Shown here: piece after piece, positions 3,629-27,322 of the stretch
Numbering within the stretch: the stretch's first letter is position 1
How the letters are laid out: the number at the start of each line of letters is the position of its first letter
Assembly (NCBI GenBank): GCA_030038475.1
Contig: JASHOU010000030.1
Span: 1 to 36,872, forward strand
Reading direction: 5' to 3'
Origin: Terriglobales bacterium
GTDB taxonomy: Bacteria > Acidobacteriota > Terriglobia > Terriglobales > Acidobacteriaceae
Length of the DNA: 36,872 bases
The notes under the pieces: generated by a model
Database searches by the model: none
What the model was told of the DNA's origin: nothing
The model's input: only the letters and a program-made list of their open reading frames with translations
Program-made: the position numbers and the translations under genes

Positions 3629-3970
3629 TTGGCGGCAATAATCGTTACGTCTGGCGTGGTCGCGGGATTGGCAGCCTGGCTGCAACTGCCCGGTGGCTCG
3701 GGTCTCTTGGGCCTGGCGCCGCTGCTGTTTATCTTCGCCATTTTTTATTTTCTTTTGATCATGCCGCAGCAGCGGAAGCAGAAGAAATGGCAGGCCATGC
3801 TCGGCGAGTTGAAGAGTGGAGACAGGGTGGTAACCAGCGGCGGGCTGCGCGGCACCATCATCAGCCTGAAAGACGATGCGCTGACACTGCGCGTGCCGCC
3901 CGATAATCTGAAGCTGGAAGTAAGCCGCGGGTCGGTGGTTTCGGTCACCACGGCGGAGGAAGGGAAATAG
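3629..3970 (+). CDS. yajC: preprotein translocase subunit YajC
   Basis: YajC is the small single-span membrane partner of SecDF in the Sec holotranslocon. The 113-residue product has a hydrophobic N-terminal stretch, a main membrane span (LGLAPLLFIFAIFYFLLIMPQQRKQKKW, about residues 27-54) ending in the family hallmark MPQQRK, and the conserved cytoplasmic part LKSGDRVVTSGGLRGTI. The start is TTG at 3629, preceded by AGAGGA. Length is usual for the family. It lies directly upstream of secD and secF in the same orientation, the classical order, although the usual upstream tgt and queA genes are absent. Confidence 0.95.
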   Translation: MAAIIVTSGVVAGLAAWLQLPGGSGLLGLAPLLFIFAIFYFLLIMPQQRKQKKWQAMLGELKSGDRVVTSGGLRGTIISLKDDALTLRVPPDNLKLEVSRGSVVSVTTAEEGK

Positions 3971-4049
3971 TCGCTGGTCGTTAGTCGTCAGTCGCTCGAA
4001 AAGCGACTCTGGTTTTGACTAACGACAATCGACCAACGACTATCGACTG
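3969..4049. repeat. heptamer tandem repeat in two convergent arms
   Basis: The spacer between yajC and secD is almost entirely repeat. The left arm (3969-3996) is four 7-base units of type AGTCGCT / GGTCGTT. The right arm (4018-4049) carries the same kind of unit on the other strand, so the two arms can pair. A perfect 7-bp hairpin (AGTCGCT ... AGCGACT, 3990-4008) sits inside. The 13-mer TGGTCGTTAGTCG at 3975-3987 recurs exactly at the thrC-moaD junction. Confidence 0.8.
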
Positions 4050-4057
4050 GTTTTTTC

Positions 4058-5671
4058 ATGAACAAGAACCTTACCTGGAAAGTAGTCGTCATCCTCGGAA
4101 TTCTGTTGCTGTTCCTGTTCGGCATCCTGGGGATTCCGAAGGAGTGGTCGGGCAAGGGACTGCTGGCGTCGATCGCCGACCGCATTCATCTCGGCCTTGA
4201 TCTGCGCGGCGGAACGCACCTGATCCTCCAGGTACAGGTCAACGACGCGGTCAACGTCGATTCCGATAACGCGATTGCGCGCCTAAAAGAAGGCATGCGC
4301 ACGCGCAAGATCAACTACGCCGACATTACCAAGCCCGATCCGGTGAACCATCCGGAGATGATCGTTGTCAAAGGTGTGCCGCCGGATCAGACTAGCGATT
4401 TCAAGAGCATCATCTCCGACCGCCTCCCGGACTATGACGCCACTTCGGGCGCGGAGAACTCATGGACGGTTTCCATGAAGGCGCAAAACCTCGCTGATTT
4501 GAAAAATCGCGCGGTGCAGCAGGCCATCGAAACCATCCGTAATCGAATCGACCAGCTCGGGGTGAGCGAGCCGGTGATTCAGGAGCACGGGCTCGGGCAG
4601 TATCAGATTCTCGTGCAACTGCCCGGCGTGGACGACCCTGCGCGCGTCAAGGAGATCATGCAGTCCACGGCGATGCTGGAAATCAAGCAATCGCTCGGCG
4701 GGCCTTATCCGAGCGAGGCTGCGGCCTTGCAGGAACATAACGGCGTGCTTCCTCCCGATGCGGTGTTGATGCAGGGAAAGGTACCGCACGCGGGCGAGGA
4801 AAGCGGCGAAGCCTGGTATCTGATTTCCCGCGCCTCGGCGGTTACCGGCCGCGACCTGCGCACGGCCGAACCCAGTCAGGATGAGAACGGGCAGCCCGCG
4901 GTCCGCTTTATTCTCACCAATGAAGGCGGACGCAAGTTCTATGCCTTCACTTCCGAGCATGTGAAAGATCAGTTGGCGGTGGTGCTCGACAATAAGGTTC
5001 AGTCGGTGGCGACCATTGAAGAGCCGATTCACGATACGGGCATCATTCATGGCCGCTTCACCGAACAAGAGGTGCAAGACCTCTCGATGACTTTGCGTTC
5101 GGGTGCGCTGCCGGCGGGCATCAAGTATCTGGAAGAGCGCACCGTCGGGCCCTCGCTCGGCGCCGATTCGATTCGCTCCGGCGTGCGTGCGGCCGTAGCC
5201 GGAATGCTGGCCGTGCTCATCTTTATGCTGATTTATTACCGCTGGGCTGGCGTCAACGCCGATGTCGCACTGATCCTGAATCTCGTTATCCTGCTCGGCT
5301 TCATGGGCTATTTTGGGGCGGTGCTGACGCTGCCCGGGATTGCCGGCGTGATTCTGACGGTCGGCATGGGCGTCGATTCGAACGTGCTGATTTTCGAGCG
5401 CATCCGCGAAGAGCTGCGCAACGGAAAGACGCCGCCCTCGGCCGTGGAGCAGGGCTTCAGCCACGCCTGGATCACCATTGTCGATACTCACGTCACGACC
5501 ATTGTTTCGGCGGCGATTCTGTTTATCTTCGGTACCGGCCCAGTCAAGGGTTTTGCCACCACGCTGGTTTTCGGTCTGGCGGCAAACCTGTTCACGGCGG
5601 TCTTTGTGTCACGCGTAATTTTCGATTGGGTGCTGAGCAGAAAACAGCGCGGAGAGGCGTTGAGCATTTAG
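4058..5671 (+). CDS. secD: protein translocase subunit SecD
   Basis: SecD uses the proton motive force to pull preproteins out of SecYEG on the periplasmic side. The 537-residue protein has an N-terminal membrane span (about residues 8-26), the hallmark DLRGGTHLILQV after it, a large periplasmic P1 region with NRIDQLGVSEPVIQ and LPGV, and a C-terminal block of five spans beginning at GPSLGADSIRSGVRAAV. The last part contains the RND-type motif GMGVDSNVLIFERIREELRNG. The ATG at 4058 lies right after the repeat spacer and has no obvious Shine-Dalgarno sequence, so translation may depend on yajC read-through. It forms an operon with yajC and secF. Confidence 0.97.
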   Translation: MNKNLTWKVVVILGILLLFLFGILGIPKEWSGKGLLASIADRIHLGLDLRGGTHLILQVQVNDAVNVDSDNAIARLKEGMRTRKINYADITKPDPVNHPEMIVVKGVPPDQTSDFKSIISDRLPDYDATSGAENSWTVSMKAQNLADLKNRAVQQAIETIRNRIDQLGVSEPVIQEHGLGQYQILVQLPGVDDPARVKEIMQSTAMLEIKQSLGGPYPSEAAALQEHNGVLPPDAVLMQGKVPHAGEESGEAWYLISRASAVTGRDLRTAEPSQDENGQPAVRFILTNEGGRKFYAFTSEHVKDQLAVVLDNKVQSVATIEEPIHDTGIIHGRFTEQEVQDLSMTLRSGALPAGIKYLEERTVGPSLGADSIRSGVRAAVAGMLAVLIFMLIYYRWAGVNADVALILNLVILLGFMGYFGAVLTLPGIAGVILTVGMGVDSNVLIFERIREELRNGKTPPSAVEQGFSHAWITIVDTHVTTIVSAAILFIFGTGPVKGFATTLVFGLAANLFTAVFVSRVIFDWVLSRKQRGEALSI

Positions 5672-5681
5672 GAGGTTTCAC

Positions 5682-5755
5682 AGTTTCAAGGTTTCAAAGT
5701 TTCAAGGATCCGGGGGCGGATTGTTTTGACCTTGCAACTCTGAGACCTTGAAACC
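5682..5755. repeat. octamer tandem repeat in two convergent arms
   Basis: The secD-secF spacer holds three 8-base units (AGTTTCAA, GGTTTCAA, AGTTTCAA) at 5682-5705, followed by an opposing arm at 5730-5755 whose reverse complement is again three 8-base units of the same type. GTTTCAAGG at 5699-5707 pairs exactly with CCTTGAAAC at 5746-5754. The design matches the heptamer arrays elsewhere in the window but with a period of 8. Confidence 0.8.
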
Positions 5756-5764
5756 CGGCTTTTT

Positions 5765-6976
5765 ATGGAATTCTTTCGTAATACCAACATCGATTTCCTC
5801 GGGAAGAAGTGGTACTTCCTTACCTTCTCGTTGATCTTCAGCGTAGCCGGAGTGCTTTCGATGGCGTTCTGGCATGGCATCCCGCTGGGTGTCGACTTTC
5901 GCGGCGGCACGCTTGTCTATGTCAAGTACTCGCACACGCCCGATCCGGCGGCCATTCACGCCGATATCGACCACGCCGGCCTGAAAAATGCCCGCGTGCA
6001 AAGGTACGGCCAGCCCGGCAACAACGAAGTGCTGATTTCGCTCGATATTCAGGAAACCAGCGAACAGGCTCTCGACAAAGGCAAAACCCAGATCGTCCAG
6101 GCGCTCGAAAGCCACGCCACTCCCGGCAAACAGGATCTGAATAACTCCAGTTCTTTGGCCATCGCGAATTATCTCTTGGAGAAAGACCCGTTGCAGCTCG
6201 GGTCGGGCGCCGATGCCAACCCCCGCTACACCGCTCTCGCGCAGGCGATCGTCGATTATCGCGATAAAACGAAGGGCGGCGTGCTCGATTCTCTGGATGA
6301 ATTGAAGAGTGTAGCCCCCCCGGCGGTGGTCACCACGCTCGGGGATAGTTTTTTCGTCTCCGATTTTGGCATCCGCAACGTCGAGATCGTCGGGCCGCAG
6401 GTGGGACAGCAATTACGCAAGCAAGCCATGCTTGCGACCCTCTATTCGCTGGGAGGAATGCTCATTTATCTGGCGCTTCGCTTCGAATGGATTTACGGCG
6501 TCGCCGCCGTGCTCACCGTCTTCCACGACACGCTGATTACGGTGGGCGCGTTTTCGCTGCTTGACAAAGAAATATCCCTGACCGTAATTGCGGCTATCCT
6601 GACGCTGATTGGATACTCCAATAACGACACCATCGTTGTGTTCGACCGCATTCGGGAGAACATCAAGCTGCTGCGCCGCGAAAAGCTGGCCGACATTGTC
6701 AACAAAAGTATTAATCAAACTTTAAGCCGAACTGTCTTGACAGCGGGCCTGACTTTCCTTACCGTGCTTGCTCTGTTTCTTTTCGGCGGCGAGGTGCTGC
6801 ATGGTTTCAGCCTGGCGCTGGTCATCGGCATTTTGATCGGAACCTATTCTTCGATTGCGATTGCCGCGCCGATTCTGGTTGCCTACCAGGAGTGGCGCGC
6901 CGGACGGGGCAAGAAGCCGATTGCCATGCCTTTGCGGCCCGGCCAGGCGCAGCCGAAAGAAAAAGTTAAGGTCTAA
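5765..6976 (+). CDS. secF: protein translocase subunit SecF
   Basis: SecF pairs with SecD in the proton-driven translocation motor. The product is 403 residues, about 100 longer than a typical SecF. It starts with the SecF signature (MEFFRNTNIDFLGKKWYF), a first span, and VDFRGGTLVYVKY. The extra length lies in the periplasmic region (about residues 95-200, including a stretch around KTKGGVLDSLDELKSVAPPAVV). The C-terminal membrane block has RNVEIVGPQVGQQLRKQA, YSNNDTIVVFDRIREN and NQTLSRTVLTAGLTFL, all typical. Start ATG 5765. It is separated from secD by 93 bases of repeat. Confidence 0.96.
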   Translation: MEFFRNTNIDFLGKKWYFLTFSLIFSVAGVLSMAFWHGIPLGVDFRGGTLVYVKYSHTPDPAAIHADIDHAGLKNARVQRYGQPGNNEVLISLDIQETSEQALDKGKTQIVQALESHATPGKQDLNNSSSLAIANYLLEKDPLQLGSGADANPRYTALAQAIVDYRDKTKGGVLDSLDELKSVAPPAVVTTLGDSFFVSDFGIRNVEIVGPQVGQQLRKQAMLATLYSLGGMLIYLALRFEWIYGVAAVLTVFHDTLITVGAFSLLDKEISLTVIAAILTLIGYSNNDTIVVFDRIRENIKLLRREKLADIVNKSINQTLSRTVLTAGLTFLTVLALFLFGGEVLHGFSLALVIGILIGTYSSIAIAAPILVAYQEWRAGRGKKPIAMPLRPGQAQPKEKVKV

Positions 6977-7147
6977 AAAGTTAAGGTCCAAGGGAAAAAC
7001 CTAAGGCCTGGATTTGCATATCTGGCGTAGAATTATGGACCTGCCCGCAGAGGTAGGGTTCGGCGGGGAGACAAGGGAAAGCGTGGGAGCAAAGAGGAAG
7101 TACGCGGTGTCTAAATCTCTATGCTGTGGTGTGTGTAGGAGAAGCCC

Positions 7148-7879
7148 ATGTTCGAAGACAGCTTGATAGAGTCCGGCGGAAAGCTGAAGACCCGGCGTTT
7201 GAGCACCACGATTCTTTCGTTTTTCGGGCAGTTCTCGCTGATCGGGATTCTGATCCTGATCCCACTGATTTATACCGACGCGTTGCCCAAAACGCAGCTC
7301 ATGACCTTCCTGGTAGCGCCACCACCCCCACCCCCGCCTCCGCCTCCGGCCGCCGCGCCCGTAAAGGTGGTGAAGATTCAGAGCGAAATGGTCAACGGCC
7401 AACTGCGCACCCCGACCAAGATTCCGCAAAAAGTCGAAATGATCAAAGAAGACGCAGCGCCCCCGGATCTGGGCGGCGGCGTCCCAGGCGGCGTTCCCGG
7501 TGGAGTTCCCGGAGGTTCGGCTGGCGGCGTAATCGGCGGCATCCTTAGTTCGACTCACGTCGATGTGCCCAAAGTCGCAACCCCGCAGCGCGTGCGCGTT
7601 TCCTCGGGCGTATCGACCGGTCTTTTGATCAAAAAGGTTCAGCCCGTCTATCCGCAACTGGCGAAGCAGGCGCGCATTCAGGGCCAGGTCGTACTTCAGG
7701 CTGAAATCAGCAAAGACGGAACCATCCAGAACCTGCAGTTGATCAGCGGGCACCCGATGTTGACTGGGGCGGCGATTGAGGCCGTAAAACAGTGGCGTTA
7801 TAAGCCTTATCTGCTCAACGGCGAACCCGTAGCCGTCGAGACCCAGGTAATCGTGAACTTCAGTTTGTCCGGGGGATAG
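7148..7879 (+). CDS. tonB: TonB-family energy transducer
   Basis: TonB proteins carry energy from ExbB/ExbD across the periplasm to outer-membrane receptors. The 243-residue product has a cytoplasmic N-terminus, one membrane span (about residues 26-47, SFFGQFSLIGILILIPLIY), a run of ten prolines (about residues 61-70), a flexible linker with the 4-residue repeat VPGG (three copies, 12-bp period), and a C-terminal TonB domain (QPVYPQLAKQARIQGQVVLQAEISKDGTI ... AVKQWRYKPYLLNGEPVAVETQVIVNF). AGGAG lies 5-6 bases before the ATG. It heads the tonB-exbB-exbD-exbD set, although 380 bases separate it from exbB. Confidence 0.93.
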   Translation: MFEDSLIESGGKLKTRRLSTTILSFFGQFSLIGILILIPLIYTDALPKTQLMTFLVAPPPPPPPPPPAAAPVKVVKIQSEMVNGQLRTPTKIPQKVEMIKEDAAPPDLGGGVPGGVPGGVPGGSAGGVIGGILSSTHVDVPKVATPQRVRVSSGVSTGLLIKKVQPVYPQLAKQARIQGQVVLQAEISKDGTIQNLQLISGHPMLTGAAIEAVKQWRYKPYLLNGEPVAVETQVIVNFSLSGG

Positions 7880-8260
7880 TCTCCGCAATGATGCCGCGTT
7901 TTCAACTGCGGCTAAGAGTTGAAGGTTATGGCAGTTAGGGCCCTCCCCGTCCCACGTATCCCGGAACGGGAGATTCAGGCTGGTGTAAGTGGTTATGCCT
8001 CCCGAGGGCGACTCTGCTTATTTAGGGTTTCTTGCATCAAACGGTCTATCAAGTGGTTGGAAAGTAGTCTGGATTCAAGCCGGTAGGCTGACGGCATAGG
8101 ACTGACTTTCCATGATTCCGCTTGTCATGCTGGCAATACTTAATGGAGAGCGGCAAGCGCCGCTCCTGGGGGCAGAGGAAGTTCGGGCACGATTGAGCAA
8201 AAAGTGCGAAGTGGTTCATAGTTCTTAGTTCGAAACAGTTCCGAGGAGGAGAAGCAACTC
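7880..8260. other. tonB-exbB spacer with hairpins
   Basis: This 381-base spacer contains no credible gene. It has a perfect hairpin GAGCGGC-AAGC-GCCGCTC at 8148-8165 and a weaker one near 7950 (CCCGT ... ACGGG). A three-unit heptamer run (GGTTCAT, AGTTCTT, AGTTCGA) lies at 8213-8233. The strong Shine-Dalgarno GAGGAGGAG for exbB is near 8242. The length suggests exbB has its own promoter, but no clear -35/-10 pair is seen. Confidence 0.5.
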
Positions 8261-9019
8261 ATGGTCGTCAACCTGGCAACAGTGGCATTCAGTCATTTCC
8301 ATCTTTTGGCCACCTGGCTCTTGCAGGATCAGGGCTCGGTCGGTTGGGACCCGATCTCGCTGTGGAAGCAAATGGGTATTCTGGCGAAGGTCGTGGTCAT
8401 CGTTTTGTTCATTATGTCGGGCTGGTCGATCGGCGTCATGATTGACCGCTGGATGGCATTCAACGCCGCCCGCAATCAATCTCGCTCGTTCGCGCCGGCA
8501 GTCGCCGGGGCGTTGCGCGAAGGCAAAATCGACGAAGCCATCAAAGTCGCCGAGCGCAACAAGAAAAGTCACCTCGCCAAGGTGGTCACAGCCGGCCTGA
8601 TGGAGTTCAAGGCTCATCAGGATAGCCCCGGAGAAATTCCCGGCGAGACGATTGAAGCCTCGAAGCGCGCTCTGGAGCGTACCGAAGCCATCGTGCACGC
8701 CGAACTGAAGCGTGGCCTGGGCGGCCTCGCGACCATCGGTTCGACGGCGCCATTTGTGGGACTGTTCGGGACCGTGGTCGGCATTCTCAACGCCTTCAAC
8801 GGCATCGCCAAGGAAAAGGCAACCGGTCTAGCAGCCGTCGCCGGTGGTATTTCCGAAGCGCTCGTAACCACGGCCGTCGGCTTGTTCGTGGCCATTCCGG
8901 CGGTCATGATGTTCAACTATTTGACCGGCAGAGTGGAAGCCTTCGACGTGGAGATGGATAACTCCTCGAGCGAGTTGATCGACTACTTCCTCAAGCGCCG
9001 GAGCATGCGCCGGTCGTAG
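8261..9019 (+). CDS. exbB: ExbB/TolQ/MotA-type proton channel protein
   Basis: ExbB forms the pentameric inner-membrane scaffold of the proton channel that energises TonB. The 252-residue protein has a first span around residues 45-65 (ILAKVVVIVLFIMSGWSIGVMIDRW), a cytoplasmic helical region, and the hallmark second and third spans: RGLGGLATIGSTAPFVGLFGTVVGILNAF and GLAAVAGGISEALVTTAVGLFVAIPAVMMFNYL. The TVVGI and EALVTTAVGL motifs are typical of the MotA/TolQ/ExbB family. A strong GAGGAGG Shine-Dalgarno precedes the ATG. It is followed by two exbD genes. ExbB versus TolQ cannot be separated by eye; the tonB neighbour favours ExbB. Confidence 0.94.
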   Translation: MVVNLATVAFSHFHLLATWLLQDQGSVGWDPISLWKQMGILAKVVVIVLFIMSGWSIGVMIDRWMAFNAARNQSRSFAPAVAGALREGKIDEAIKVAERNKKSHLAKVVTAGLMEFKAHQDSPGEIPGETIEASKRALERTEAIVHAELKRGLGGLATIGSTAPFVGLFGTVVGILNAFNGIAKEKATGLAAVAGGISEALVTTAVGLFVAIPAVMMFNYLTGRVEAFDVEMDNSSSELIDYFLKRRSMRRS

Positions 9020-9051
9020 CTTCTGAGGCTGCGCACATGAGTTGCTGAACA

Positions 9052-9072
9052 GGCGCCGGGCGTTCCGGCGCC
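9052..9072. other. perfect hairpin between exbB and exbD
   Basis: GGCGCCGG and CCGGCGCC form an 8-bp GC-only stem with a 5-base loop, 33 bases after the exbB stop. There is no T-run, so it is not a classical terminator. It could stabilise the exbB mRNA end or reduce read-through; that role is inference. Confidence 0.6.
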
Positions 9073-9146
9073 CGCTCCTCCTCATCCTCACAGTCCGGAT
9101 TAACAGAAAGCGGTTAACGGCAAGCGCACGCAGGAGACAGAATTCC

Positions 9147-9626
9147 ATGGCATTAGCAAAAAGAAACGAAGCAGCCAACGTCACTTCCGACATCAACGTC
9201 ACGCCAATGGTGGATGTGATGCTGGTCCTGCTCATCATCTTCATGGTTGTTACGCCCATGCTGCAACATGGCGTGCCCGTGGATATGGCCAAGGTCAATA
9301 ATCCCGAGGATATGCACGACGCCGACAAGGAAGATGCGCTGCTGGTTGCAGTCACTCGCGACGACAAGGTTTTTTTCGGCAACGATCTGGTCAAGCCCGA
9401 CGATCTTACCCAGAAAATCAAGGACAAATTGACCAATCGCACAGACAAACGGGTATTTTTGAAAGCCGACATGCGCGCCAAGTTCGGCTGGGTGGTTGAG
9501 GTCGTCGACGATGTTCGCGCCGCCGGAGTGGACCAACTCGGCCTGTTGACCGATCAGAAGAAGTCGGGAGCGCTGGCGCCGGGCACGACTCCGACTCCGC
9601 CACCGGCGCCGTCGGGCGGCCAATAA
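9147..9626 (+). CDS. exbD: ExbD/TolR biopolymer transport protein (first copy)
   Basis: ExbD sits inside the ExbB pentamer and its membrane Asp relays protons. The 159-residue product has the N-terminal tail, then INVTPMVDVMLVLLIIFMVVTPML (residues about 20-43) with the key Asp in VDVMLVLL. The periplasmic domain ends in DVRAAGVDQLGLLTDQKK, followed by a Pro-rich tail (TPTPPPAPSG). The ATG at 9147 is chosen because AGGAGA lies about 11 bases upstream and the family alignment begins there; the open frame extends upstream but is not ExbD-like. It is followed after 34 bases by a second, clearly different exbD. Confidence 0.93.
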   Translation: MALAKRNEAANVTSDINVTPMVDVMLVLLIIFMVVTPMLQHGVPVDMAKVNNPEDMHDADKEDALLVAVTRDDKVFFGNDLVKPDDLTQKIKDKLTNRTDKRVFLKADMRAKFGWVVEVVDDVRAAGVDQLGLLTDQKKSGALAPGTTPTPPPAPSGGQ

Positions 9627-9660
9627 GAAGGGCTTAGCGAGCAGTTAAGAGGAGATCGTT

Positions 9661-10101: not shown

Positions 10102-10164
10102 AATCTCCGGATTGGTTATCGCTCAAGCCACCATAGAGGCATTTGTTGAATAGCTTTTAAAATT

Positions 10165-11103: not shown

Positions 11104-11106
11104 ATA

Positions 11107-11165
11107 CCCAGCACTCGGAAACCAGTAGCCAGTATTCAGTGGGTTTAAAGAGCTGAATGCTGGCT
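11107..11165. repeat. heptamer repeat arms forming the terminator
   Basis: Right after the TPR gene, 7-base units run from 11107 to 11141 (CCCAGCA, a poor unit, ACCAGTA, GCCAGTA, TTCAGTG). The opposite strand at 11152-11165 gives GCCAGCA and TTCAGCT. The arms face each other and build the hairpin at 11127-11165. Confidence 0.6.
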
Positions 11166-11170
11166 GTTTT
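11127..11170 (+). terminator. rho-independent terminator of the exb/TPR block
   Basis: AGCCAGTATTCAG (11127-11139) pairs with CTGAATGCTGGCT (11153-11165) over 13 positions with one G-T pair; the loop is 13 bases, and GTTTT follows. It lies 23 bases after the TPR stop codon. Confidence 0.75.
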
Positions 11171-14226: not shown

Positions 14227-14290
14227 AAAAAGAGAAATAGCGAAAAGAAAAATAGCAGGTCCAGGCCGCGAGGAAACGTATCTGTTGTCC

Positions 14291-14325
14291 GGCTCGCGGC
14301 TCGCAGCTCGTAGCCCGCAGCGCGC
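14291..14325. repeat. heptamer tandem repeat (GGCTCGC type)
   Basis: Five consecutive 7-base units run from 14291: GGCTCGC twice, then AGCTCGT, AGCCCGC and AGCGCGC. The array lies in the 274-base spacer before the sigma-54 activator gene, on one strand only. Confidence 0.75.
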
Positions 14326-18285: not shown

Positions 18286-18323
18286 GTCCCAATCCCAAAC
18301 TTCGAAACTCACACGGTTTTCCT

Positions 18324-18351
18324 GAGACCCGAGACCTAAGACCTGATACCT
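18324..18351. repeat. heptamer tandem repeat (GAGACCT type)
   Basis: Four perfect-length 7-base units: GAGACCC, GAGACCT, AAGACCT, GATACCT. The array lies between the end of the MshEN remnant and the stop of the ABC permease gene. Confidence 0.8.
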
Positions 18352-18355
18352 GGTT

Positions 18356-20559: not shown

Positions 20560-21653
20560 GGCTTCGCCGCCGCTTCCGCGCTGGTTGGCGCCGTGCCTTT
20601 AATTTGTTGCGGACTCACCAACACCTCCGCAGTCATTCCCGGCACATACGCTCCTTTCGGATTTGCCAGTCGCACCTTCAGCGCGATCGTGCGAATATCC
20701 CGCTTGCGCCGTCCCACATCCCGCTGCGTGGCAAAATCCGCTTCCGCCGCCTTATAAAAAACCTTCCCCGGAACCACCGTCCCTCCCGGCAGCCGCACTT
20801 TCAGCGTATCTCCGAATCCAATATGATCGGCATCGGTCTCCGGAATTGCCGCGAACACCCAGGTGTCGCTGAAATCCACCACGGTCACGATCGCCTGCCC
20901 CGCATTCACCACTTCGCCTTCGCGTGCCGCCCGTACCAGCACCGTCCCTGTCACCGGCGAATAAATCTTCGTGTAGCCCAGCCGCACCTCGGCTTCCTTC
21001 AGCTGCGCCACCGAGTTCTCTACTTGCGCCCGCGTCGCTGCCACCGTGCTCTGCGCCGCTGTAGCCTGATTGGTCCGCGCAATCGCCGAATTCAGGTCCG
21101 CTTGCGCCGCAGCCACTTCGTGTTGCAGCGACTGCACACTCGCCTGCTGCGCCTTCAGATTCATCTCCGCCTGTACCCGGTCCTGATCCGACTCGACTCC
21201 TGCCTCCGCCAGCCCAATCGTCCGCCGGCTGTCGCTCTCCACCCGCGTCAACGTCGCTTCTGCCTGCGCCAGTTGCGCTCGCGTCGAGGCCAGTTTTGCC
21301 TGCGCATTGGCCACGTCGCTTGAGGTTGATCCTTTGGTCGATTGCCGCGTGTATTCGTTTGCGCTCATCTGCGAGCGCATATTCGAAATGGTCGCCGCCG
21401 CCGCGCTCTCCTCCGCCTCCAGTTCCGACGGATCCAAAATCGCGATCAGATCTCCCTGCTTTACCTGCGTTCCTTCTTCCACCAGCAGCTTTTCAATCCG
21501 CCCCTGAATCTGCGGACTCACCACGATCTGGTTCGCATCCACGGTTCCGACCAATACCAGATCGCTCCCGTGCGGCGTCGAGATAAAGTAGTATCCTGCC
21601 GCAATCACCAGAATGATCCCGAGCAAAATCAAAAACTTATTTCGCGCATTCAT
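20556..21653 (-). CDS. HlyD/EmrA-family membrane fusion protein
   Basis: This periplasmic adaptor (365 residues) links an inner-membrane exporter to an outer-membrane channel. It has an N-terminal anchor (FLILLGIILVIAAGYYFI, about residues 7-25), a biotinyl-lipoyl half-motif (VGTVDANQIVVSPQIQGRIEKLLVEEGTQVKQGDLIAILDP), a long coiled-coil hairpin (about residues 80-210, rich in Ala/Gln/Glu), and the second half-motif (YSPVTGTVLVRAAREGEVVNAGQAIVTVVD). The start ATG 21653 is chosen because GGGAGA lies about 6 bases upstream; a TTG two codons earlier is too close to that site. It overlaps the ATPase gene by 4 bases, so all three are one operon. Confidence 0.94.
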   Translation of the reverse strand: MNARNKFLILLGIILVIAAGYYFISTPHGSDLVLVGTVDANQIVVSPQIQGRIEKLLVEEGTQVKQGDLIAILDPSELEAEESAAAATISNMRSQMSANEYTRQSTKGSTSSDVANAQAKLASTRAQLAQAEATLTRVESDSRRTIGLAEAGVESDQDRVQAEMNLKAQQASVQSLQHEVAAAQADLNSAIARTNQATAAQSTVAATRAQVENSVAQLKEAEVRLGYTKIYSPVTGTVLVRAAREGEVVNAGQAIVTVVDFSDTWVFAAIPETDADHIGFGDTLKVRLPGGTVVPGKVFYKAAEADFATQRDVGRRKRDIRTIALKVRLANPKGAYVPGMTAEVLVSPQQIKGTAPTSAEAAAKP

Positions 21654-21763
21654 CGCCAATCTCCCTGCATATCAATCCAGAAGCATTTTCCCATCCCACG
21701 TACCTCTCGGTGCTTCCCGTTGTCCTTAAGCTTTCCTCCGCGCGCTCGGCGTCTCGGCGGTGA

Positions 21764-22471
21764 TCACCGAAACAGCGCCGCCGAAATAAAATTCAGAACA
21801 AATGCCCGCCGCTCGCGAATTCGCCCCTCCGATAGAGGATCGACCTTCACGAGGCTCTTCATCAACGGCGCCGTACTGAAATAAAAAATAATGATTCCCA
21901 CCACCGACGGAACAAAATCGATCGGATCGACCTCCCGAAATTCCCCTGCCTCGATTCCCTGGCGCAACACATCTACCAGTTTGGCGAAAATCGGAAGAAA
22001 ATATTCTTTTGCAATGCGCTGCATGGGAACGTGCCCCTTCCCGCCTGCGCGCATCCACTCCGCCTGCACCACCCGCGGAAACCGTGGATTCGCGGCGATG
22101 TAATCGAAATACTCGCCCAGATACTTCAAAATCTTTTGCCGCGGCGGCAGGTCGCTTTCGAAAACCGGCATCACCCGCGCCCGCAGCCCGCTGAACACAT
22201 GGTCAAGCACAGCTTCGTAGAGCGCGTCCTTGTCCTTGAAGTAGTAATAAAGGAGCGCCTTGTTGACATGCGCCGCGCGTGCGATCGCGTCCGTGCGCGC
22301 GCCCGCGATGCCGTGCTCGGCGAATTCGGCCACCGCGGCTCGCAAAATGGAAGCCCGGCTCTCCTCCGGCTGGCCGCGCGTCCCGAAACGTGGAACGATG
22401 GCGTGGCCCCTGCTGCGGACGGCGGCGCCGCGGCGGGCAGGATGCAGGCGAAACTTGGTCCTCGATGTCAT
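21764..22471 (-). CDS. TetR/AcrR-family transcriptional regulator
   Basis: The 235-residue regulator has an N-terminal Arg-rich tail of about 30 residues and then the TetR DNA-binding region: ASILRAAVAEFAEHGIAGARTDAIARAAHVNKALLYYYFKDKDALYEAVLDHVF. The C-terminal part is all-helical ligand-binding and dimer region (TetR_C type, about residues 100-235). It is upstream of, and in the same direction as, the HlyD-ABC genes with a 110-base gap, so it probably represses its own operon until an exported compound binds. The palindrome overlapping its start region is the likely operator. Confidence 0.92.
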   Translation of the reverse strand: MTSRTKFRLHPARRGAAVRSRGHAIVPRFGTRGQPEESRASILRAAVAEFAEHGIAGARTDAIARAAHVNKALLYYYFKDKDALYEAVLDHVFSGLRARVMPVFESDLPPRQKILKYLGEYFDYIAANPRFPRVVQAEWMRAGGKGHVPMQRIAKEYFLPIFAKLVDVLRQGIEAGEFREVDPIDFVPSVVGIIIFYFSTAPLMKSLVKVDPLSEGRIRERRAFVLNFISAALFR

Positions 22472-22476
22472 ATAAT

Positions 22477-22520
22477 TAACTAGTTAGTTAGATTGTAACA
22501 TAGGATATTTCCGGCTCCAA
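22477..22520 (-). promoter_or_regulatory. promoter and TetR-type operator of the efflux operon
   Basis: On the minus strand TTGGAG (22520-22515) and TACAAT (22497-22492) are 17 bases apart, a good sigma-70 pair. Just downstream lies the perfect palindrome TAACTAGTTA (22477-22486), extended by a further AGTTA. It lies 5 bases before the tetR ATG, where a bound repressor would block the transcription start. Confidence 0.55.
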
Positions 22521-22593
22521 GCAGGGTATTCCCGATTTCCAGAAAAGTGAGCGGTCGCGATGTGTGGCGACTCAAGAGCACAGACTCCCGCCC

Positions 22594-22983
22594 TCACGCC
22601 TTCGGTTCCGCCGGCACCTCAAACGGCCCACACCGCCCGCCCATACGATCGCGCATCGATTGCCGGAATTTCTCCCGCTCCTCCGGAGTCATCCGCGCCC
22701 ATCCCTCCATCCACCGGCGCCGCCACCGTCTCGGGCCACCATGGCCGCCGCGCCGCCCGTGAAATCCGCCGAAAAGAATCTTGCTCAGCACCATGATCCC
22801 GATTGCCTGCCAGTAGCCGATCACATGCAGGCCAAAAATTGCCGGCATCAGCCAGTTCCACAGGCGCATCACAAAATAGCCGAATAGGGCAAACAGCACT
22901 ACAAACAGCAGAGCGAACGTCATCGCCTTTGTAACCTTCCTCGTAACCCTCGCAACCGGATTTTCTTCCAGATTTCCTTCCAT
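22594..22983 (-). CDS. small membrane protein next to a sigma factor
   Basis: The 129-residue product has an N-terminal cytoplasmic segment (MEGNLEENPVARVTRKV), two membrane spans (AMTFALLFVVLFALFGYFVMRLWNWL and FGLHVIGYWQAIGIMVLSKILFGGF, about residues 18-70), a Gly/Arg-rich stretch (GRRGGHGGPRRWRRRW) and the C-terminal motif MTPEEREKFRQSMRDRMGGRCG. The last motif resembles the ending of small proteins linked to ECF sigma factors in Acidobacteriota. GAGGAC lies about 6 bases before the ATG at 22983, which is 10 bases after the sigma factor stop, so the two are co-transcribed. It may be an anti-sigma or regulatory partner; this is inference. Confidence 0.8.
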   Translation of the reverse strand: MEGNLEENPVARVTRKVTKAMTFALLFVVLFALFGYFVMRLWNWLMPAIFGLHVIGYWQAIGIMVLSKILFGGFHGRRGGHGGPRRWRRRWMEGWARMTPEEREKFRQSMRDRMGGRCGPFEVPAEPKA

Positions 22984-22993
22984 CGTTTTGTCC

Positions 22994-23656
22994 TCACTCT
23001 CCGATAAATTCGTCGTAGACAGCCTGCAGCCGCTCGCGCAGGTAAAGCACTGCATAATGCTTGCGCGAGAGCAGCGTATTCACGCCCACGCCCGTTTTTG
23101 CCGCAATGTCTTTGAAGCTCTCACCCATCAGCTCCTGCGCGATGAACACTTCGCGTTGTTCCTCCGGCAGTTCGTCCAGCGCGGCTTCCAGTTCTTCCAG
23201 CAGAACATTTCGCGCGTAAACCGCATCCGGCCCAGCGTCTGGCGAAGCGAGAGAATCCTCCAGCCGGAATATCTCTTCACCCTCCGCGTCAATCGCCGCT
23301 TCGTCACCCAACACTTCCCACTTTTTCTTGCGGAACAGATCCGTAATCCGGTTGCGCGCCACGCGAAACAGCCACGCGCTCACGTGTTCCACCGGGTTCA
23401 GCATGCGATAAGCTTCGACCAGTTCGTAAAAAACCTCTTGCAGAATGTCTTCCGCGTCCTCGCGGTCAGTCACACGCCGCCGGATGAAATTCCGCAGCCG
23501 CGGCCGCTCACGGTCGATCGCGTCCGCGATCCGCTGATCCTGCGTAGTGCGATCCGGGGCGGGGCGGCCTTGCGTCGGGTCGTCCTCTGTCCGCTGATCC
23601 TCCACCCGCTGATTCAGCTCCGTCATCACCCACCGTTTGCTTAGCGCCTGCTCCAT
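22994..23656 (-). CDS. ECF-type RNA polymerase sigma factor
   Basis: The 220-residue sigma-70-family protein has region 2 (IADAIDRERPRLRNFIRRRVTDREDAEDILQEVFYELVEAYRMLNPVEHVSAWLFRVARNRITDLFRKKK, about residues 42-115) with the DAEDILQEVF core-binding and the WLFRVARN promoter-melting helices. Region 4 (ALDELPEEQREVFIAQELMGESFKDIAAKTGVGVNTLLSRKHYAVLYLRERL) has the -35-binding helix-turn-helix. The N-terminal 40 residues are Asp/Arg/Gln-rich and unusual. The start may be 23656 or the ATG at 23626 (after GGTGGG). The gene is followed by the small membrane protein. Confidence 0.93.
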   Translation of the reverse strand: MEQALSKRWVMTELNQRVEDQRTEDDPTQGRPAPDRTTQDQRIADAIDRERPRLRNFIRRRVTDREDAEDILQEVFYELVEAYRMLNPVEHVSAWLFRVARNRITDLFRKKKWEVLGDEAAIDAEGEEIFRLEDSLASPDAGPDAVYARNVLLEELEAALDELPEEQREVFIAQELMGESFKDIAAKTGVGVNTLLSRKHYAVLYLRERLQAVYDEFIGE

Positions 23657-23666
23657 CCGATCTAAT

Positions 23667-23725
23667 CAGTTCTCGGTCGTCAGTCCTTGGCGTCCAGTTC
23701 TCGGTTCCCGGTTCTCAGTTCTCAG
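23667..23725. repeat. heptamer tandem repeat (CAGTTCT type)
   Basis: About eight consecutive 7-base units: CAGTTCT at 23667, 23695 and 23716, with variants CGGTTCT, CGGTTCC, CAGTCCT and CGGTCGT between. It starts 10 bases upstream of the sigma factor gene start. Confidence 0.8.
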
Positions 23726-23772
23726 AAAAAATGCCTCGGCTAGCACTGAAAACCGACGACTCATTATGTCCA

Positions 23773-23786
23773 TCTACTTCTGTAGA
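23773..23786. promoter_or_regulatory. TCTAC-N4-GTAGA inverted repeat upstream of the sigma factor
   Basis: Perfect 5-base arms TCTAC and GTAGA. On the minus strand a TTGACG box (23803-23798) precedes it. BlaI/MecI-type sites have a similar CTAC/GTAG core, but the match is weak. The heptamer array lies between this site and the gene. Confidence 0.3.
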
Positions 23787-23828
23787 CGAACGAGCCCGTC
23801 AAATATTGTATGGAGATCATAGTGGCGC

Positions 23829-23975
23829 GGTTTAGCCGCTAAACCCAAGATTCTCCAGAGGAAGATTTCTCCACCGCGATTGAATGAAATCCAGCCCCGG
23901 AGGGGCGTCCAGTTGATTAGCCCAGCGCTTCAGCGCTGGAGAAAGTGCGACAAATCCCAAAGTCCCAGAGGGACG
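23829..23975. repeat. mosaic of small palindromes (REP-like)
   Basis: Several perfect hairpins follow one another: GGTTTAG-CCG-CTAAACC (23829-23845), CCCC-GGA-GGGG (23895-23905), CCAGCGCTTCAGCGCTGG (23922-23939) and GTCCC-AGA-GGGAC (23962-23974). This reads as a REP-type intergenic element between the divergent sigma factor and phosphatase genes. Confidence 0.55.
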
Positions 23976-24106
23976 ACCATCTCTCACCACACTCTTTGAC
24001 CCCTGAGGAAACACCCGGCCCGCGACACCTCCCTCAGAGATGTTAAAGTTACTGTGGCTGTCATCCATCCCCCATTTGCCTTGGATCAACCGAGGTTCTG
24101 GCCGCA

Positions 24107-25060
24107 ATGCAGCACATCGTCAACAACCTTTGGCTTGGCGGTCAATACGACGCCGACGAACTGGTTCACGACAATCCAGAAAAAATCACGGCCATCCTCA
24201 ACGTCCGCGGCCCCGATGCCTACAATCCGCCGGGACGGGACCAATCCGCCGAGCATCCTGGCAAAGCGTACAAATATATTCCAGCGCCCGACATCGGCAC
24301 CGTTTATCCCCGGCATGTGAAGGAAGCCGTCGAGTGGCTCGGGGAACAAACCGGCAAAGGCGCACGCATATTGATCCATTGCAAGCACGGAATCTCGCGC
24401 TCGCCAGCTTTCCTGGCCGCGTTCATGGTCGTGAGCGGAATCTCCTCGAACCTCGAGGACGCGAAGATTCTGATCTCTCAGCATCGGCCCGTTCACCCGG
24501 CGGCGCAGCTTGTCGATCCCGCAACCCGTGTTGTCCTGATCTGCGCGCTCACCGGGTTGCCCAACCGCGCTGCCTTTGACCGGGGAAACACCAGTCCCTT
24601 CGTGGCCATCGCTGACGTCCACCACATGCGCATTTTTAACGAGATGTATGGTCAACTCTCCGGTGACAAGCTCCTGTGCAGGCTTGCCTACGTGCTCCTC
24701 GGCGCCAAACTTGACGCCTACCACGACGCCGGAGACAAATTCCTATGCAAAGCTGATTCTCACCAGGACGGCTCTCAGTCGGATGGCTCTGGACCGGACG
24801 GTTCCAAACTCGACGGCTCTAAGTCAGATTTGGCCGCCAAGCTCTCCGAAGCTCGGCAGGTTTTTATGCGGCCATTTCAGCTCTATGCCAACGGCCACAT
24901 CCAAACCATCGAGGGGATGGATTTTTCCTTCGGCATCGGCGCAACTCTGAAAGAAGCGGAGTCTGCCCTGCACGAAGCAAAAAGGTCAGCACTCCAAAAC
25001 GAGCCACCAGAGTGGCTGCGGCGGATTATTGCCATGGGCGGCCGCGGCCAAGTCTGGTAA
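24107..25060 (+). CDS. dual-specificity phosphatase fused to a degenerate GGDEF domain
   Basis: The 317-residue soluble protein has two parts. Residues 1-130 are a dual-specificity/tyrosine phosphatase: general-acid candidate Asp62 (PAPDIG) and the active-site loop HCKHGISRS (His91, Cys92, Arg98), a full HCx5R motif. Residues 145-300 follow the GGDEF diguanylate cyclase pattern: LTGLPNRAAFD (148-158), the first metal Asp in AIADVHHMRIFNEMYG (Asp170; the second Asp of DxD is His), QLSGDKLLCRLA, the signature position AGDKF (208-212) instead of GGDEF, and FSFGIGATLKEAESALHEAKR near the end. The signature is degenerate, so cyclase activity is unlikely; nucleotide binding remains possible. A 15-bp repeat (residues 221-240, D-G-S units) lies after AGDKF. 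ATG 24107 was chosen because the phosphatase fold starts at once. Confidence 0.88.
   Translation: MQHIVNNLWLGGQYDADELVHDNPEKITAILNVRGPDAYNPPGRDQSAEHPGKAYKYIPAPDIGTVYPRHVKEAVEWLGEQTGKGARILIHCKHGISRSPAFLAAFMVVSGISSNLEDAKILISQHRPVHPAAQLVDPATRVVLICALTGLPNRAAFDRGNTSPFVAIADVHHMRIFNEMYGQLSGDKLLCRLAYVLLGAKLDAYHDAGDKFLCKADSHQDGSQSDGSGPDGSKLDGSKSDLAAKLSEARQVFMRPFQLYANGHIQTIEGMDFSFGIGATLKEAESALHEAKRSALQNEPPEWLRRIIAMGGRGQVW
24767..24826 (+). repeat. 15-bp tandem repeat inside the phosphatase-GGDEF gene
   Basis: Four in-frame 15-base units (first GACGGCTCTCAGTCG, second GATGGCTCTGGACCG) encode DGSQS, DGSGP, DGSKL and DGSKS. They form a hydrophilic loop insertion after the AGDKF strand of the GGDEF-like domain. 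Confidence 0.88.
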
Positions 25061-25170
25061 TCCAAGCTTCACTGATTTTTCCGTGCAAGCAGCGCGTGTC
25101 AGTTAGTGGAAACGCGATGTTTCGACAGTGACCGATTCGTGAGTTCTACAAGTCGGCGAGCCAGGCACAT

Positions 25171-25198
25171 AAAAAACCGCCCAGCCAGAGCTGAGCGG
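25171..25198 (-). terminator. rho-independent terminator of the Gloeo_Verruco gene
   Basis: On the minus strand CCGCTCAGC pairs with GCTGGGCGG over 9 positions (one G-T pair), loop TCTG, followed by TTTTTT. It lies about 95 bases after the gene's stop. Confidence 0.85.
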
Positions 25199-25202
25199 GG
25201 CA

Positions 25203-25282
25203 GAGTCGAACGCTTGCAGCAACACACTCGACTCTAATGTCGCGCACTTCGACCCTGCACATGCGACGTCAAAGTGCGCGAC
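25203..25282. repeat. two consecutive inverted repeats before the terminator
   Basis: AGAGTCGA (25203-25210) pairs with TCGACTCT (25228-25235), and GTCGCGCACTT (25239-25249) pairs perfectly with AAGTGCGCGAC (25272-25282). With the terminator, three hairpins are lined up over 110 bases downstream of the Gloeo_Verruco gene, as a structured 3' region or a small RNA would look. Confidence 0.55.
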
Positions 25283-25294
25283 TAGGCGAGCACC

Positions 25295-26593
25295 CTAAGG
25301 AGTCAGTTCGAAGACAACGCCAGCCCCGTTCGATCCTCCCGCGGAGGTAGTGCCGTACAGATTGCCCGCGCCGTCGGGAATCAAGCCGCTGAACGGGGTG
25401 CGTCCGTCCGCGCCGTTAAAACTCCAGGGAAGAGGCTTCATATATTTCCAATGGTCCAAGCCTATCCAATTTAGCCCAAAGACAACCCCATCCCCGTCCT
25501 CGCCACCCAACGCGGTGCCGTAAAGGTATTCGTAGTACTCGTTCCCGAAATATACGACCCCGCCCCAAGGATAGAAACCGTCTTTTTTGCCGCCGAGAAA
25601 GGAGTGGCGAACAATAAACGTCCGCTGCTCGCTCTTTTTCTTTCCCTTCAGATAGACCAGCATGTAGATTGTTCCGTGGTTCTCCGCGCCGCCATACACT
25701 GTCGTACCGTAAATGTCCCCCCACGGGTCGAGGACGGGGGTGCTTTCTGCATCGAGGCCATCTTTAGCGCCACCGCGAAAGGTGTGGAGCCCGGTCACCC
25801 TCCAACCGCCTTCGCCGTCCGGTGACATCTCGAATACGGATTCAGATTCGGTAGTGTAGATGTTCCCGGCACTATCCATACTCAAGCCGGCACAGTTCTC
25901 CTCGTAAGGATCAATCGGCGTGATCACTTGGATCGTCCAATCGCCCCCGAACGGGCTCAGTTCGAAGACGGTTCCGGAACTATTCTTGCCGCCGGAATAC
26001 GTTTTGCCGTAGAGATTGCCCGCCCCGTCCATGATCAGGCCGTTCACTGGATTAGCGCCATCCGCACTGCCAGTAAAGCTGTACAGCACGGTCTCCGTCC
26101 AGCTTCCTCCCACGGGACTAAGTTCGAACACGACACCGTATCCATTCGCGCCGCTGTTGTACGCCGTTCCATAGAGATTTCCCGCCCCGTCGAACATCAC
26201 GTAAGAGTAGGTTGGGTTCGCTCCGTCCGATCCTCCAGTGAAACTGTAGAGCACGGTCTCGTTCCAGCCCCCGTCGCCATTCGGGGAAAGCTCAAATACG
26301 GTTCCATCTCCCCATAGCCCCCCAGAGTAGGTCGTCCCATAGAGGTTGCCAGCAGCGTCAAAGGCGAGGTTGGACGTGGGGTCGCCGCCGTCGCTGCCGC
26401 CCGTGAAGCTATAGAGCACAGTCTCAGTTTGTCCCCTCGCAGGAAGAGCAAAAAGCAACAGCAATGCGAGCACGGCGAGGGTGAGAACGACGAAGGTGAT
26501 CGCGGCTGCCAATCTCGTCGAGCCGAATCTCGGTTCGCCATCGGAAGTGTCGAGATGGCGTCTCGCCACGGTATTCATTGCCGATGAATGCAT
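25295..26593 (-). CDS. secreted Gloeo_Verruco-type repeat protein
   Basis: The 432-residue protein has a membrane segment or signal peptide late in the N-terminus (about residues 27-55, AAAITFVVLTLAVLALLLLFALPARGQ). The mature part consists of about eight repeats of roughly 45-55 residues with the core ETVLYSFTGG-x-DGANP ... DGAGNLYGTTYSGG-x-GxGTVFELSP, as in the TIGR03803 Gloeo_Verruco family. Such repeats are expected to form a beta-propeller-like extracellular structure; function is unknown. The middle repeats (about residues 225-330) are less regular. GAGGAGG sits 5 bases before the ATG at 26593. A strong terminator follows. The gene is monocistronic. Confidence 0.9.
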   Translation of the reverse strand: MHSSAMNTVARRHLDTSDGEPRFGSTRLAAAITFVVLTLAVLALLLLFALPARGQTETVLYSFTGGSDGGDPTSNLAFDAAGNLYGTTYSGGLWGDGTVFELSPNGDGGWNETVLYSFTGGSDGANPTYSYVMFDGAGNLYGTAYNSGANGYGVVFELSPVGGSWTETVLYSFTGSADGANPVNGLIMDGAGNLYGKTYSGGKNSSGTVFELSPFGGDWTIQVITPIDPYEENCAGLSMDSAGNIYTTESESVFEMSPDGEGGWRVTGLHTFRGGAKDGLDAESTPVLDPWGDIYGTTVYGGAENHGTIYMLVYLKGKKKSEQRTFIVRHSFLGGKKDGFYPWGGVVYFGNEYYEYLYGTALGGEDGDGVVFGLNWIGLDHWKYMKPLPWSFNGADGRTPFSGLIPDGAGNLYGTTSAGGSNGAGVVFELTP

Positions 26594-26906
26594 AGTCCCT
26601 CCTCATAATTTTGTTCTTTGTTGTGAGCCCTCGGTGGTTAGGAGAGTTTCCCTCGCGTTCTCCGAGGACCGCTCTTGGTGAATCTCCTTTTCGTTTTTAG
26701 GGATTTTCCTACAGACTAAATAGATACCCTTGGGTGGGTTCTGTCAGTGCACTTTGTCACCAGGCACTGTGATTGCCGGATGCTTCACAGGTTCGCGCTT
26801 CCTTGCAAATGAGGGTTCTGCGTGTCGCGTTCTCGTGAAATGGCTCCTGACCAGCACGCGAGCAACTAGGAATCTCATCCCCTCCGCGTACTCGAACCGG
26901 CGAACC
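26594..26906. other. spacer between Gloeo_Verruco and moaD genes
   Basis: This 313-base spacer has no credible gene. A near-palindrome TAGGGATTTTCCTA (26698-26711) lies about 105 bases upstream of the Gloeo_Verruco start and could be an operator. The remainder shows nothing recognisable; no intrinsic terminator was seen after moaD. Confidence 0.4.
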
Positions 26907-27188
26907 CTACTCCGCCCCGCCCGCGATTGAAGGCACCAGTAGCACCTCGTCGCCATCTTGAAACGAATACGCCGCGCCGCCCAGGAAGCGAATGTCTTCC
27001 TCATTCACGTAAATATTCAGGAAGCGCCGCGTTTCTCCCGCCTCATCCCGCAGATGCGGCTTCAGGTCCGGAAACTGCGAATCAAGGTGCGAGAACAGCT
27101 CGCTGAGATTTGTCGCCGAACAGACCACGCTCGGAGTTCCAGCCGTAAGCCGCCGCAATGCCGTCGGTATTTGAACTGTAATGCTCAT
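26907..27188 (-). CDS. MoaD/ThiS-family sulfur carrier protein
   Basis: The 93-residue ubiquitin-like protein has MSITVQIPTALRRLTAG at the start, SELFSHLDSQFPDLKPHLRDEAGETRRFLNIYVNEEDIRFLGG in the middle and FQDGDEVLLVPSIAGG near the end, which is the typical beta-grasp carrier layout of the CysO/MoaD group. Sulfur is carried as a thiocarboxylate on the terminal Gly of the GG pair. Here two residues (Ala-Glu) follow the Gly90-Gly91, so the tail must be trimmed before activation, as done by JAMM/Mec-type proteases in CysO-like systems. It lies directly downstream of the thrC-like gene in the same operon, under a SAM riboswitch, which suggests a role in sulfur amino acid synthesis rather than molybdopterin. 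Confidence 0.92.
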   Translation of the reverse strand: MSITVQIPTALRRLTAGTPSVVCSATNLSELFSHLDSQFPDLKPHLRDEAGETRRFLNIYVNEEDIRFLGGAAYSFQDGDEVLLVPSIAGGAE

Positions 27189-27226
27189 AAAAACCTCCAG
27201 GGCCGAATGCCCGAATGAATGGAATC

Positions 27227-27322
27227 AGTCGTTGGTCGTTAGTCGTTAGCAAACCCGACCACGACCGAATTGCCACAAGCTTTCGCGACCCGCGAGCGAC
27301 TAACGACCATCAACTATCGACC
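27227..27322. repeat. heptamer tandem repeat in two convergent arms
   Basis: The thrC-moaD spacer carries AGTCGTT, GGTCGTT, AGTCGTT (27227-27247) and an opposing arm (27296-27322) with units GGTCGAT, AGTTGAT, GGTCGTT and AGTCGCT on the other strand. The 13-mer TGGTCGTTAGTCG is present in both arms and is identical to that at 3975-3987. Confidence 0.85.

Follow-up and report, generated by a model that had tools for sequence, protein, structure and literature searches.

Inward-facing arrays of short DNA words at gene borders in a Terriglobales genome and its relatives

Tandem arrays of 7- or 8-nucleotide (nt) words recur in the spacers of a Terriglobales bacterium, where we followed them from one contig of 36,872 nt (C102, the window) through the 4.46-Mb draft genome to which it belongs (G000) and into related genomes. 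The pattern is real and lies strongly beyond chance. The heptamer repeats resolve into an element with measurable rules: a period of 7 or 8, about four units per arm, inward polarity, anchoring at gene edges, and a word that both arms have in common although neither arm is a copy of the other. The word can also be replaced while the site stays fixed, in TGT even in-frame. The simplest accounts by slippage or by RNA hairpins sit badly with these rules. The reading that we favor, with moderate confidence, is that the arrays belong to dispersed, insertion-like elements acting at the DNA level. An excess of heptamer repeats has long been recorded in bacteria, and we know of no accepted cause.

Abundance was measured in 41 stretches (700,223 bases) with 449 spacers (103,973 bases) and 578 kb of called genes, using ten dinucleotide shuffles, a purpose-built hexamer model for gene calling, and a counting threshold of score 12. 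Period 7 gave 31 intergenic arrays versus 0.0 in shuffled spacers and period 8 gave 13 versus 0.1, and the counts at periods 4, 5, 6, 9, 10, and 11 were 1, 0, 1, 0, 0, and 0. At periods 14 and 16, 22 and 17 arrays were found, with 3, 3, 9, and 4 at periods 12, 13, 15, and 17. Within called genes, period 7 accounted for eight arrays, in seven genes, and period 8 for none. Hence, in G000 the arrays are neither at shuffle-level frequency, nor as common within genes as between them, nor absent from the rest of the genome. An earlier reading of the window from its letters alone (the sequence-only reading) had proposed a constant 7-base period, a unit specific to each site, and placement between genes. 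The 7-base period holds, but the octamer is a second regular period and not a lone exception; placement is mostly intergenic, but arrays also occur in-frame in TGT and MnmG of relatives; and the units, rather than being specific to their sites, are drawn from a small lexicon that recurs genome-wide. By eye, this lexicon includes AGTCGTT, AGTTTCAA, AATTKGT, AGGTCTC, AGTTCTC, ATTGAGTC, GCTTCGA or GGCTCGC, and AGCTGTC in G000.

The words are widely shared. Three tandem copies of RGTCGTY with up to two mismatches occur 58 times forward and 54 times reverse in the whole of G000 (reversed-pattern control 0 and 0) and, at the same stringency, in 24 of 24 genomes of the genus (controls 0 to 25 per genome); with one mismatch they occur in 30 of 297 genomes of the phylum, G000 included. 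The octamer is present in 19 of 24 genus genomes, with controls reaching about 30% of the signal. Among stretches from other families, for which gene calling, trained one stretch at a time, was poor, some carry period-7 arrays of other words and some carry none. Relatives L051-L105 (a set without L106-L117) hold 31 intergenic and 35 genic period-7 arrays. These counts include L099, which most tests on relatives left out; its contig is labelled Hyphomicrobiales, yet its secD is identical to that of the Acidobacteriaceae locus L063, and it is probably misbinned. Loci L001-L030, L205-L224, and L226-L233 were chosen for carrying arrays, and counts using them are not densities. Phages queried with the element at window position 3969 and plasmids queried with the octamer gave no match. 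The congener G022 has no period-7 or period-8 array in 18.3 kb of sampled spacers, where the G000 rate predicts about 7.7, and it shows one AGTCGTT match and no octamer. As L055, it is placed inside the array-bearing clade with weak support. This genome, array-free in the sample, offers a contrast for finding the responsible factor. A Candidatus Torokbacteria contig (L112, 10-2113) contains period-7 arrays of TTTTGAA and ATTCCTG.

Arm size is the first regularity. Counted over arms of at least three units, with two-unit arms uncounted, four units make up 35 of 51 AGTCGTT arms, 23 of 33 octamer arms, 24 of 46 octamer arms in G001 and G003, and 10 of 16 AGGTCTC arms; AATTKGT arms peak at five units (8 of 18). 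The falling, open-ended copy-number distribution of slippage repeats is thus not seen (the mode is four among these arms), whereas their whole-unit gain and loss is. Long, near-perfect, open-ended heptamers of CCCTGAA and AACCCCG, unlike the four-unit arms, occur in L176 (G072) at 72-111 and 7558-7661. Each word has a near-invariant core with one or two free positions: position 1 of AGTCGTT is A or G about equally, and its GTCG is nearly fixed, although core conservation of this type is overstated because the arrays were found by consensus. Bases at the junctions are conserved as well. After one base, the sequence just inside AGTCGTT arrays continues with G (35 of 39) and then C (26 of 39), and AGGTCTC arrays are followed by AGGAAAA, each base being present in 7 to 11 of 11. 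The preceding base is C before AGGTCTC arrays (11 of 11) and A before octamer arrays (17 of 18), and A-rich bases lie directly outside left arms, hence T-rich bases after right arms.

Arrays are also polar with respect to the genes beside them. Read from the nearest gene edge, 43 of 46 point inward (Fisher 9e-10), a count that sets aside 6 of 52 for their central position or long spacer and another 6 for lying within called genes. The proportion is 14 of 15, 20 of 20, and 7 of 8 in three classes of strand pair; divergent spacers, too few to judge, give 2 of 3. Arrays for which no partner was detected are still inward in 19 of 22 cases. In spacers with more than one array of one word, the order is forward-reverse in 12 of 13 and forward-reverse-forward in the remaining one. 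Among the matches listed, opposed neighbors within 250 nt converge in at least 13 of 13 cases for AGTCGTT in G000 and at least 19 of 19 for the octamer in G001, where one further listed pair of neighbors has equal orientation. The edges act as anchors: 66 of 112 arrays lie within 15 nt of a gene edge versus 32.2±4.5 at random, and in spacers of at least 200 nt the figure is 11 of 37 versus 4.0. The sequence-only reading had invoked a generator that copies period rather than sequence, by slippage or otherwise; the four-unit peak, the recurrence of words in a single polarity, and the near-invariant cores leave both that generator and plain slippage unsupported.

The two arms of an element, separated by loops of 10-172 nt (27 of 44 between 20 and 50 nt), share the word and not the order of its variants: complementarity over 34 elements is 607 versus 609±8.7 with units permuted, which rules out arms as palindromic copies of each other. 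Because the elements of this test were selected for complementarity, an arm-match score of 16.9 versus 4.1 is inflated. Best hairpins beat ten shuffles in 30 of 45 array-bearing spacers of G000 and 32 of 49 of related genomes. Wide pairs enclosing a gene were considered and discarded; L225 has no called gene between its arms, and L226 consists of two separate spacers.

Orthologous spacers indicate how arrays change over time. Both spacers flanking secD were read in 49 relatives, and 48 rows were kept in the secD tree, loci without a full-length secD being dropped. The word of the secD-secF spacer is of AGTCGTT, GTTCGCT, AGTTTCAA, or GCTTC type depending on the species, and it differs within the sister pairs L052/L057 and L053/L062. 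In a test of the 14 species with a labelled array there (same-clade L055, L064, and L065 left out), which is unaffected by the bias in choosing elements, left and right halves of one spacer match at 18.9, halves from other species with the same word at 21.4, and halves with different words at 6.6. A change of word therefore affects both arms, and 0 of 10,000 permutations reach the observed value. Because AGTCGTT and GTTCGCT species agree over roughly the last 18 nt upstream of secF (one base off in L051), these arms differ inside fixed flanks; the octamer form differs up to the secF start codon, so that whole-spacer recombination is possible there. Here and at one TGT site, the architecture outlasts the sequence. 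The comparison of orthologous spacers that the sequence-only reading had called for did reveal gain or loss of whole units (by 7 nt between L056 and L092 and between L051 and L060, and by 16 nt between L054 and L059).

Such differences invite an explanation by growth in place, through replication slippage with hairpin template switching, in which a word would reach both arms as the arms can pair. Whole-unit differences between orthologous arms, intermediate arms in L060 and L061/L064, and a mismatch spectrum that fits a process in DNA (below) agree with this. We nevertheless consider it unlikely, since unit number peaks at four, the arms are not unit-by-unit copies of each other, and one word occupies many loci in a single polarity. 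Because whole-unit gain or loss does occur, slippage is better regarded as a secondary process.

Arrays within genes extend the pattern into coding sequence. The 35 genic arrays of the relatives sit in 20 called genes, 14 TGT and 6 MnmG homologues (identified by Pfam for L060, L076, and L084 and by shared flanking peptides for the remainder); TGT is oversampled because the loci were picked for secD, its neighbor. Between the conserved VPW and LFGIVQGG, TGT has an in-frame loop of 15-240 nt across 38 loci, and 15 of these carry period-7 arrays, mostly near four units, the first of which begins 2-7 nt past the conserved codons in 14 of 15. At least seven words, varying by species, were distinguished by eye (AGCCGTC, AGCTCTC, AGCTCGC, AGTTTCG, AGCACTC, AGTACTC, and GTCGCCA types). 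Likewise, the MnmG genes of L084 and L105, about 92% identical outside, have different repeats at one site. Insertions would be expected to leave such in-frame arrays, and regulation accounts for them poorly. REP-like palindromes were seen by eye in-frame in the same TGT loop of L085, L090, L103, and L105 (the loop of L084 is short); with word arrays and palindromes in one place, the loop seems to tolerate dispersed repeats in general.

The in-frame arrays bear directly on the explanation that we rank next after dispersal at the DNA level, namely arrays of binding sites in which each protein subunit reads one 7- to 8-bp word, about four stand in a row, pairs are inverted, and every word has its own protein. 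Ribbon-helix-helix repressors on tandem 7- or 8-bp boxes provide an analogue. The preference for about four units, a near-invariant core with free positions, a largely exchangeable unit order, and the small influence of spacer orientation are all as this explanation would have it. We regard it as possible but rather doubtful, because at least eight words in one genome (by eye) would require as many proteins, because sister species differ in the word that one orthologous spacer carries, and because TGT and MnmG carry arrays in-frame with many words.

A role in RNA, as bidirectional terminators or mRNA-protecting hairpins, is also suggested by how well the two-arm elements of the window fold (Table 1). 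The T-rich sequence after right arms points the same way, as does a slight excess of edge arrays at stops (39 stop and 27 start, against a background of 446 and 526). Array occurrence, however, depends little on transcription. In the sampled stretches, co-directional spacers carry arrays in 29 of 257 cases, divergent ones in 8 of 86, and convergent ones in 6 of 52; with the array-chosen stretches added, the numbers are 62 of 334, 13 of 96, and 10 of 56. Divergent spacers thus hold arrays at a rate similar to that of co-directional ones, and others lie within coding sequence. Selection for RNA pairing should, moreover, favor G.T over A.C mismatches on the transcribed strand, and 45 co-directional hairpins have 66 of each (G.T/A.C of 26/37 in G000 and 40/29 in relatives), equal counts that give no sign of selection in RNA. 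The suggestion that transcripts fold back at these sites is right in that the arms can pair, but the mismatches carry no RNA wobble bias, and the mark of intrinsic terminators, a hairpin selected in RNA at transcript ends, was not found. We judge an RNA role to be highly improbable.

In the reading that we favor, two inverted arms that face each other over a loop particular to the locus make up a complete element. An arm consists of one 7- or 8-nt word repeated in tandem about four times, and its outer end adjoins constrained sequence, be it a stop codon, a start codon, or the conserved TGT codons. DNA copying, driven by some factor, would carry words between loci; candidate routes are short-patch conversion or transposition of the hairpin-forming pair (the route proposed for REPINs). 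Once installed, arrays would change through gain or loss of whole units and through point changes. Consistent with copying, identical three-unit runs are shared between arms more often than under permutation (113 versus 52.5±8.9, 6 versus 1.7, and 12 versus 6.1).

A number of observations weigh against dispersal by copying. Shared three-unit runs are not significant for AATTKGT and AGGTCTC, nor are two-unit runs for AGTCGTT; the run counts also take in arms that belong to a single element, and the octamer signal may owe something to junction preferences. Position-index tests were negative except for the octamers of G000 itself, and a suspected ordered octamer block found backing in shared runs but none in the position index in G001 and G003 (248 of 2000). 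Loops are not common to loci within one genome, save one 12-nt match (E 0.002), and G003 loci with identical arms share no loops by eye, whereas transposition of the whole element should leave loops shared. By strict score, only 9 of 15 array pairs within one spacer have a common word, and of five second arrays in TGT, two share the direction of the first and three face it (by eye). No target-site duplication was detected, 1 of 44 elements having a common word of at least 5 with 6.7% expected. Equal words are not significantly clustered either: 4 of 23 near spacer pairs versus 2.2±1.35 by permutation, the raw same-word array pairs being 9 of 38 near and 174 of 2158 far. The candidate mobilizers likewise fall away. 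Y1/RAYT was rejected, as the three Y1 genes of G000 have REPs (by eye) without a period-7 or period-8 array; Y1 matches occur in 22 of 24 genus genomes, and G012 and G013 are array-rich yet have no Y1 match (83% and 71% complete). Reverse transcriptase was rejected as well, with no RVT_1 match in G000, G003, G007, or G021.

Beside one of the three Y1 genes, in L120 (1132-1207), a degenerate 6-nt array (TTGATC, TTGACG, TTGGCG) lies between a palindromic repeat and the transposase gene, and in L017 a conventional REP (GGCACGACTTCAGTCGTGCC) adjoins an AGTCGTT array.

The locus-specific loops that burden dispersal would follow naturally from templated addition at broken ends, where both 3' ends copy one short template and then join. 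This would equally account for the same word running 5' to 3' inward on both strands, for arms with a common word and no common unit order, and for the conserved bases just outside and inside the arrays. RVT_1, however, gives no match in G000 and several array-rich genomes, and we give this route only a slim chance.

The window itself holds two-arm elements, single arrays, and a weak candidate (Table 1). Of the eight spacers originally named as array-bearing, six are supported and 11107 is weak, whereas 8213 is unsupported by direct reading, Tandem Repeats Finder (TRF), or period scan: site 8213-8233 has two loose units, no TRF or period-scan hit, and a fold z of +0.5. Fold z-scores for window sites were computed with DNA parameters and compared with shuffles. 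The arms at 3969-4048 score 11.4 and 11.8 singly, just below the counting cut of 12, and the pair is backed by a fold z of -4.5. Site 11107-11166 has three rough units and a second arm, with a fold z of -2.9 and zero TRF or period-scan hits. No fold signal is present at the 14290 array (z +1.5). The claim of an opposite-strand arm at four sites was thus nearly right, three being strong (z -4.5, -5.3, and -5.1) and one weak (z -2.9).

Table 1. Word arrays and arms in the 36,872-nt window.
Feature	Position	Strand	Remarks
Left arm, RGTCGTT x4	3969..3996	+	Starts within the stop codon of gene 3656-3970, which precedes secD
Right arm, RGTCGTT on the other strand, four units plus AGTC	4017..4048	-	Ends 9 nt upstream of secD start
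Left arm, octamer RGTTTCAA, about 4 units	5675..5705	+	3 nt past secD stop
Right arm of octamer element	5730..5755	-	Precedes secF start at 5765; element fold z -5.3
Weak candidate, CAGTAGC CAGTATT CAGTGGG and opposed CTGAATG CTGGCTG	11123..11166	.	Direct reading
Single array, GGCTCGC x5	14290..14325	+	63 nt past stop codon; score 18.0
Single array, AGGTCTC x4 on minus strand	18321..18352	-	3 nt from the stop of a minus-strand gene
Array, AGTTCTC	23667..23725	+	Divergent spacer; final four units 23697-23725 strong, start degenerate
Left arm, RGTCGTT, three units then AGC	27227..27250	+	TRF, direct reading, RGTCGTY pattern search
Right arm, RGTCGTT, four degenerate units	27295..27322	-	5 nt from stop edge of next gene; element fold z -5.1

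Other features of the window include an Acido-Lenti-1 RNA at 23893-23940 (-), barely over its gathering score and sharing the divergent spacer of the 23667 array, and a SAM riboswitch at 28746-28859 (-; 66.5 bits). A 15-nt unit in about two exact copies lies at the 3' end of secF (6960-6988), and a 24/48-nt tandem repeat lies within an open frame at 33792-33967.

Among known systems, the sequence-only reading had likened the arrays to the STRR of cyanobacteria. STRR are tandem heptanucleotides, and to that extent the resemblance stands; inverted four-unit pairs and polarity are not known from them, and sites in Geobacter metallireducens are closer (below). Our search of the Acidobacteriota literature (subscription papers and supplements outside) yielded, among the matches listed, no description of such arrays. 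Three heptanucleotide STRR are mentioned in Calothrix (PMC4692102). GGGAATC-type heptamers of Xanthomonas and Nostoc are, like ours, intergenic, mostly of four units in Xanthomonas, and in part inverted pairs, but they are G-rich and quadruplex-forming and have 2-26 units (PMC4692102). TAACTGA repeats of Beggiatoaceae, Cyanobacteria, and Bacteroidetes are likewise intergenic heptamer arrays in scattered lineages with an unexplained origin, but consist of one word, mostly just upstream of start codons (PMC4679880).

REPINs and Rickettsia palindromic elements are functional analogues, and one defining feature of each is lacking here. REPINs are dispersed extragenic inverted doublets with conserved ends, a less conserved spacer, and predicted hairpins; unlike our arrays, REPs are not tandem arrays of words, and REPINs favor specific distances and accompany RAYT genes (PMC3116915). 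We find the dispersed inverted doublets but no RAYT gene beside the same repeats (three Y1 genes in G000). Rickettsia palindromic elements are palindromic repeats of several families that occur in-frame in protein genes, but they are about 150 bp long, each with a conserved peptide (PMC10969869), whereas in our case the word at one site varies with the species. The in-frame insertion is shared (TGT, MnmG), and the conserved family sequence and peptide are not.

In architecture, the arrays resemble the paired tandem-repeat sites of Geobacter metallireducens more than they do STRR. Those sites are built from tandem units of 7 to 9 nt (four octamers, three units, five heptamers, or four heptamers); classes 1-3 are putative global-regulator sites for which IHF/HU was suggested, and classes 1 and 2 form opposite-strand pairs at variable distance (PMC2700814). 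As here, there are several word classes per genome, and the four-heptamer class is also found within genes (PMC2700814). Our arrays share the tandem 7- to 8-nt units, few per site, and the opposite-strand pairs at variable distance, with many arrays lacking a detected partner. The consensus words GTTGCTYN, TCTCCGTS[Y], and MTYCTGA read differently from ours, in a comparison by eye only. The sites were described class by class in one deltaproteobacterial genome, and the accessible text of that report does not mention gene-edge polarity, change of word between orthologues, or a mismatch test (PMC2700814). We conclude that the feature is a variant of a thinly described kind, for which dispersal at the DNA level is the most likely basis and arrays of protein sites the next. 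More tentatively, the arrays may reflect a widespread bacterial process that places or propagates short words where constrained sequence begins or ends, intergenic and in-frame, with the architecture inherited and the word replaceable; arrays in other Acidobacteriota families, in the one Candidatus Torokbacteria contig, and in Geobacter could then form one class of word-swapping DNA element.

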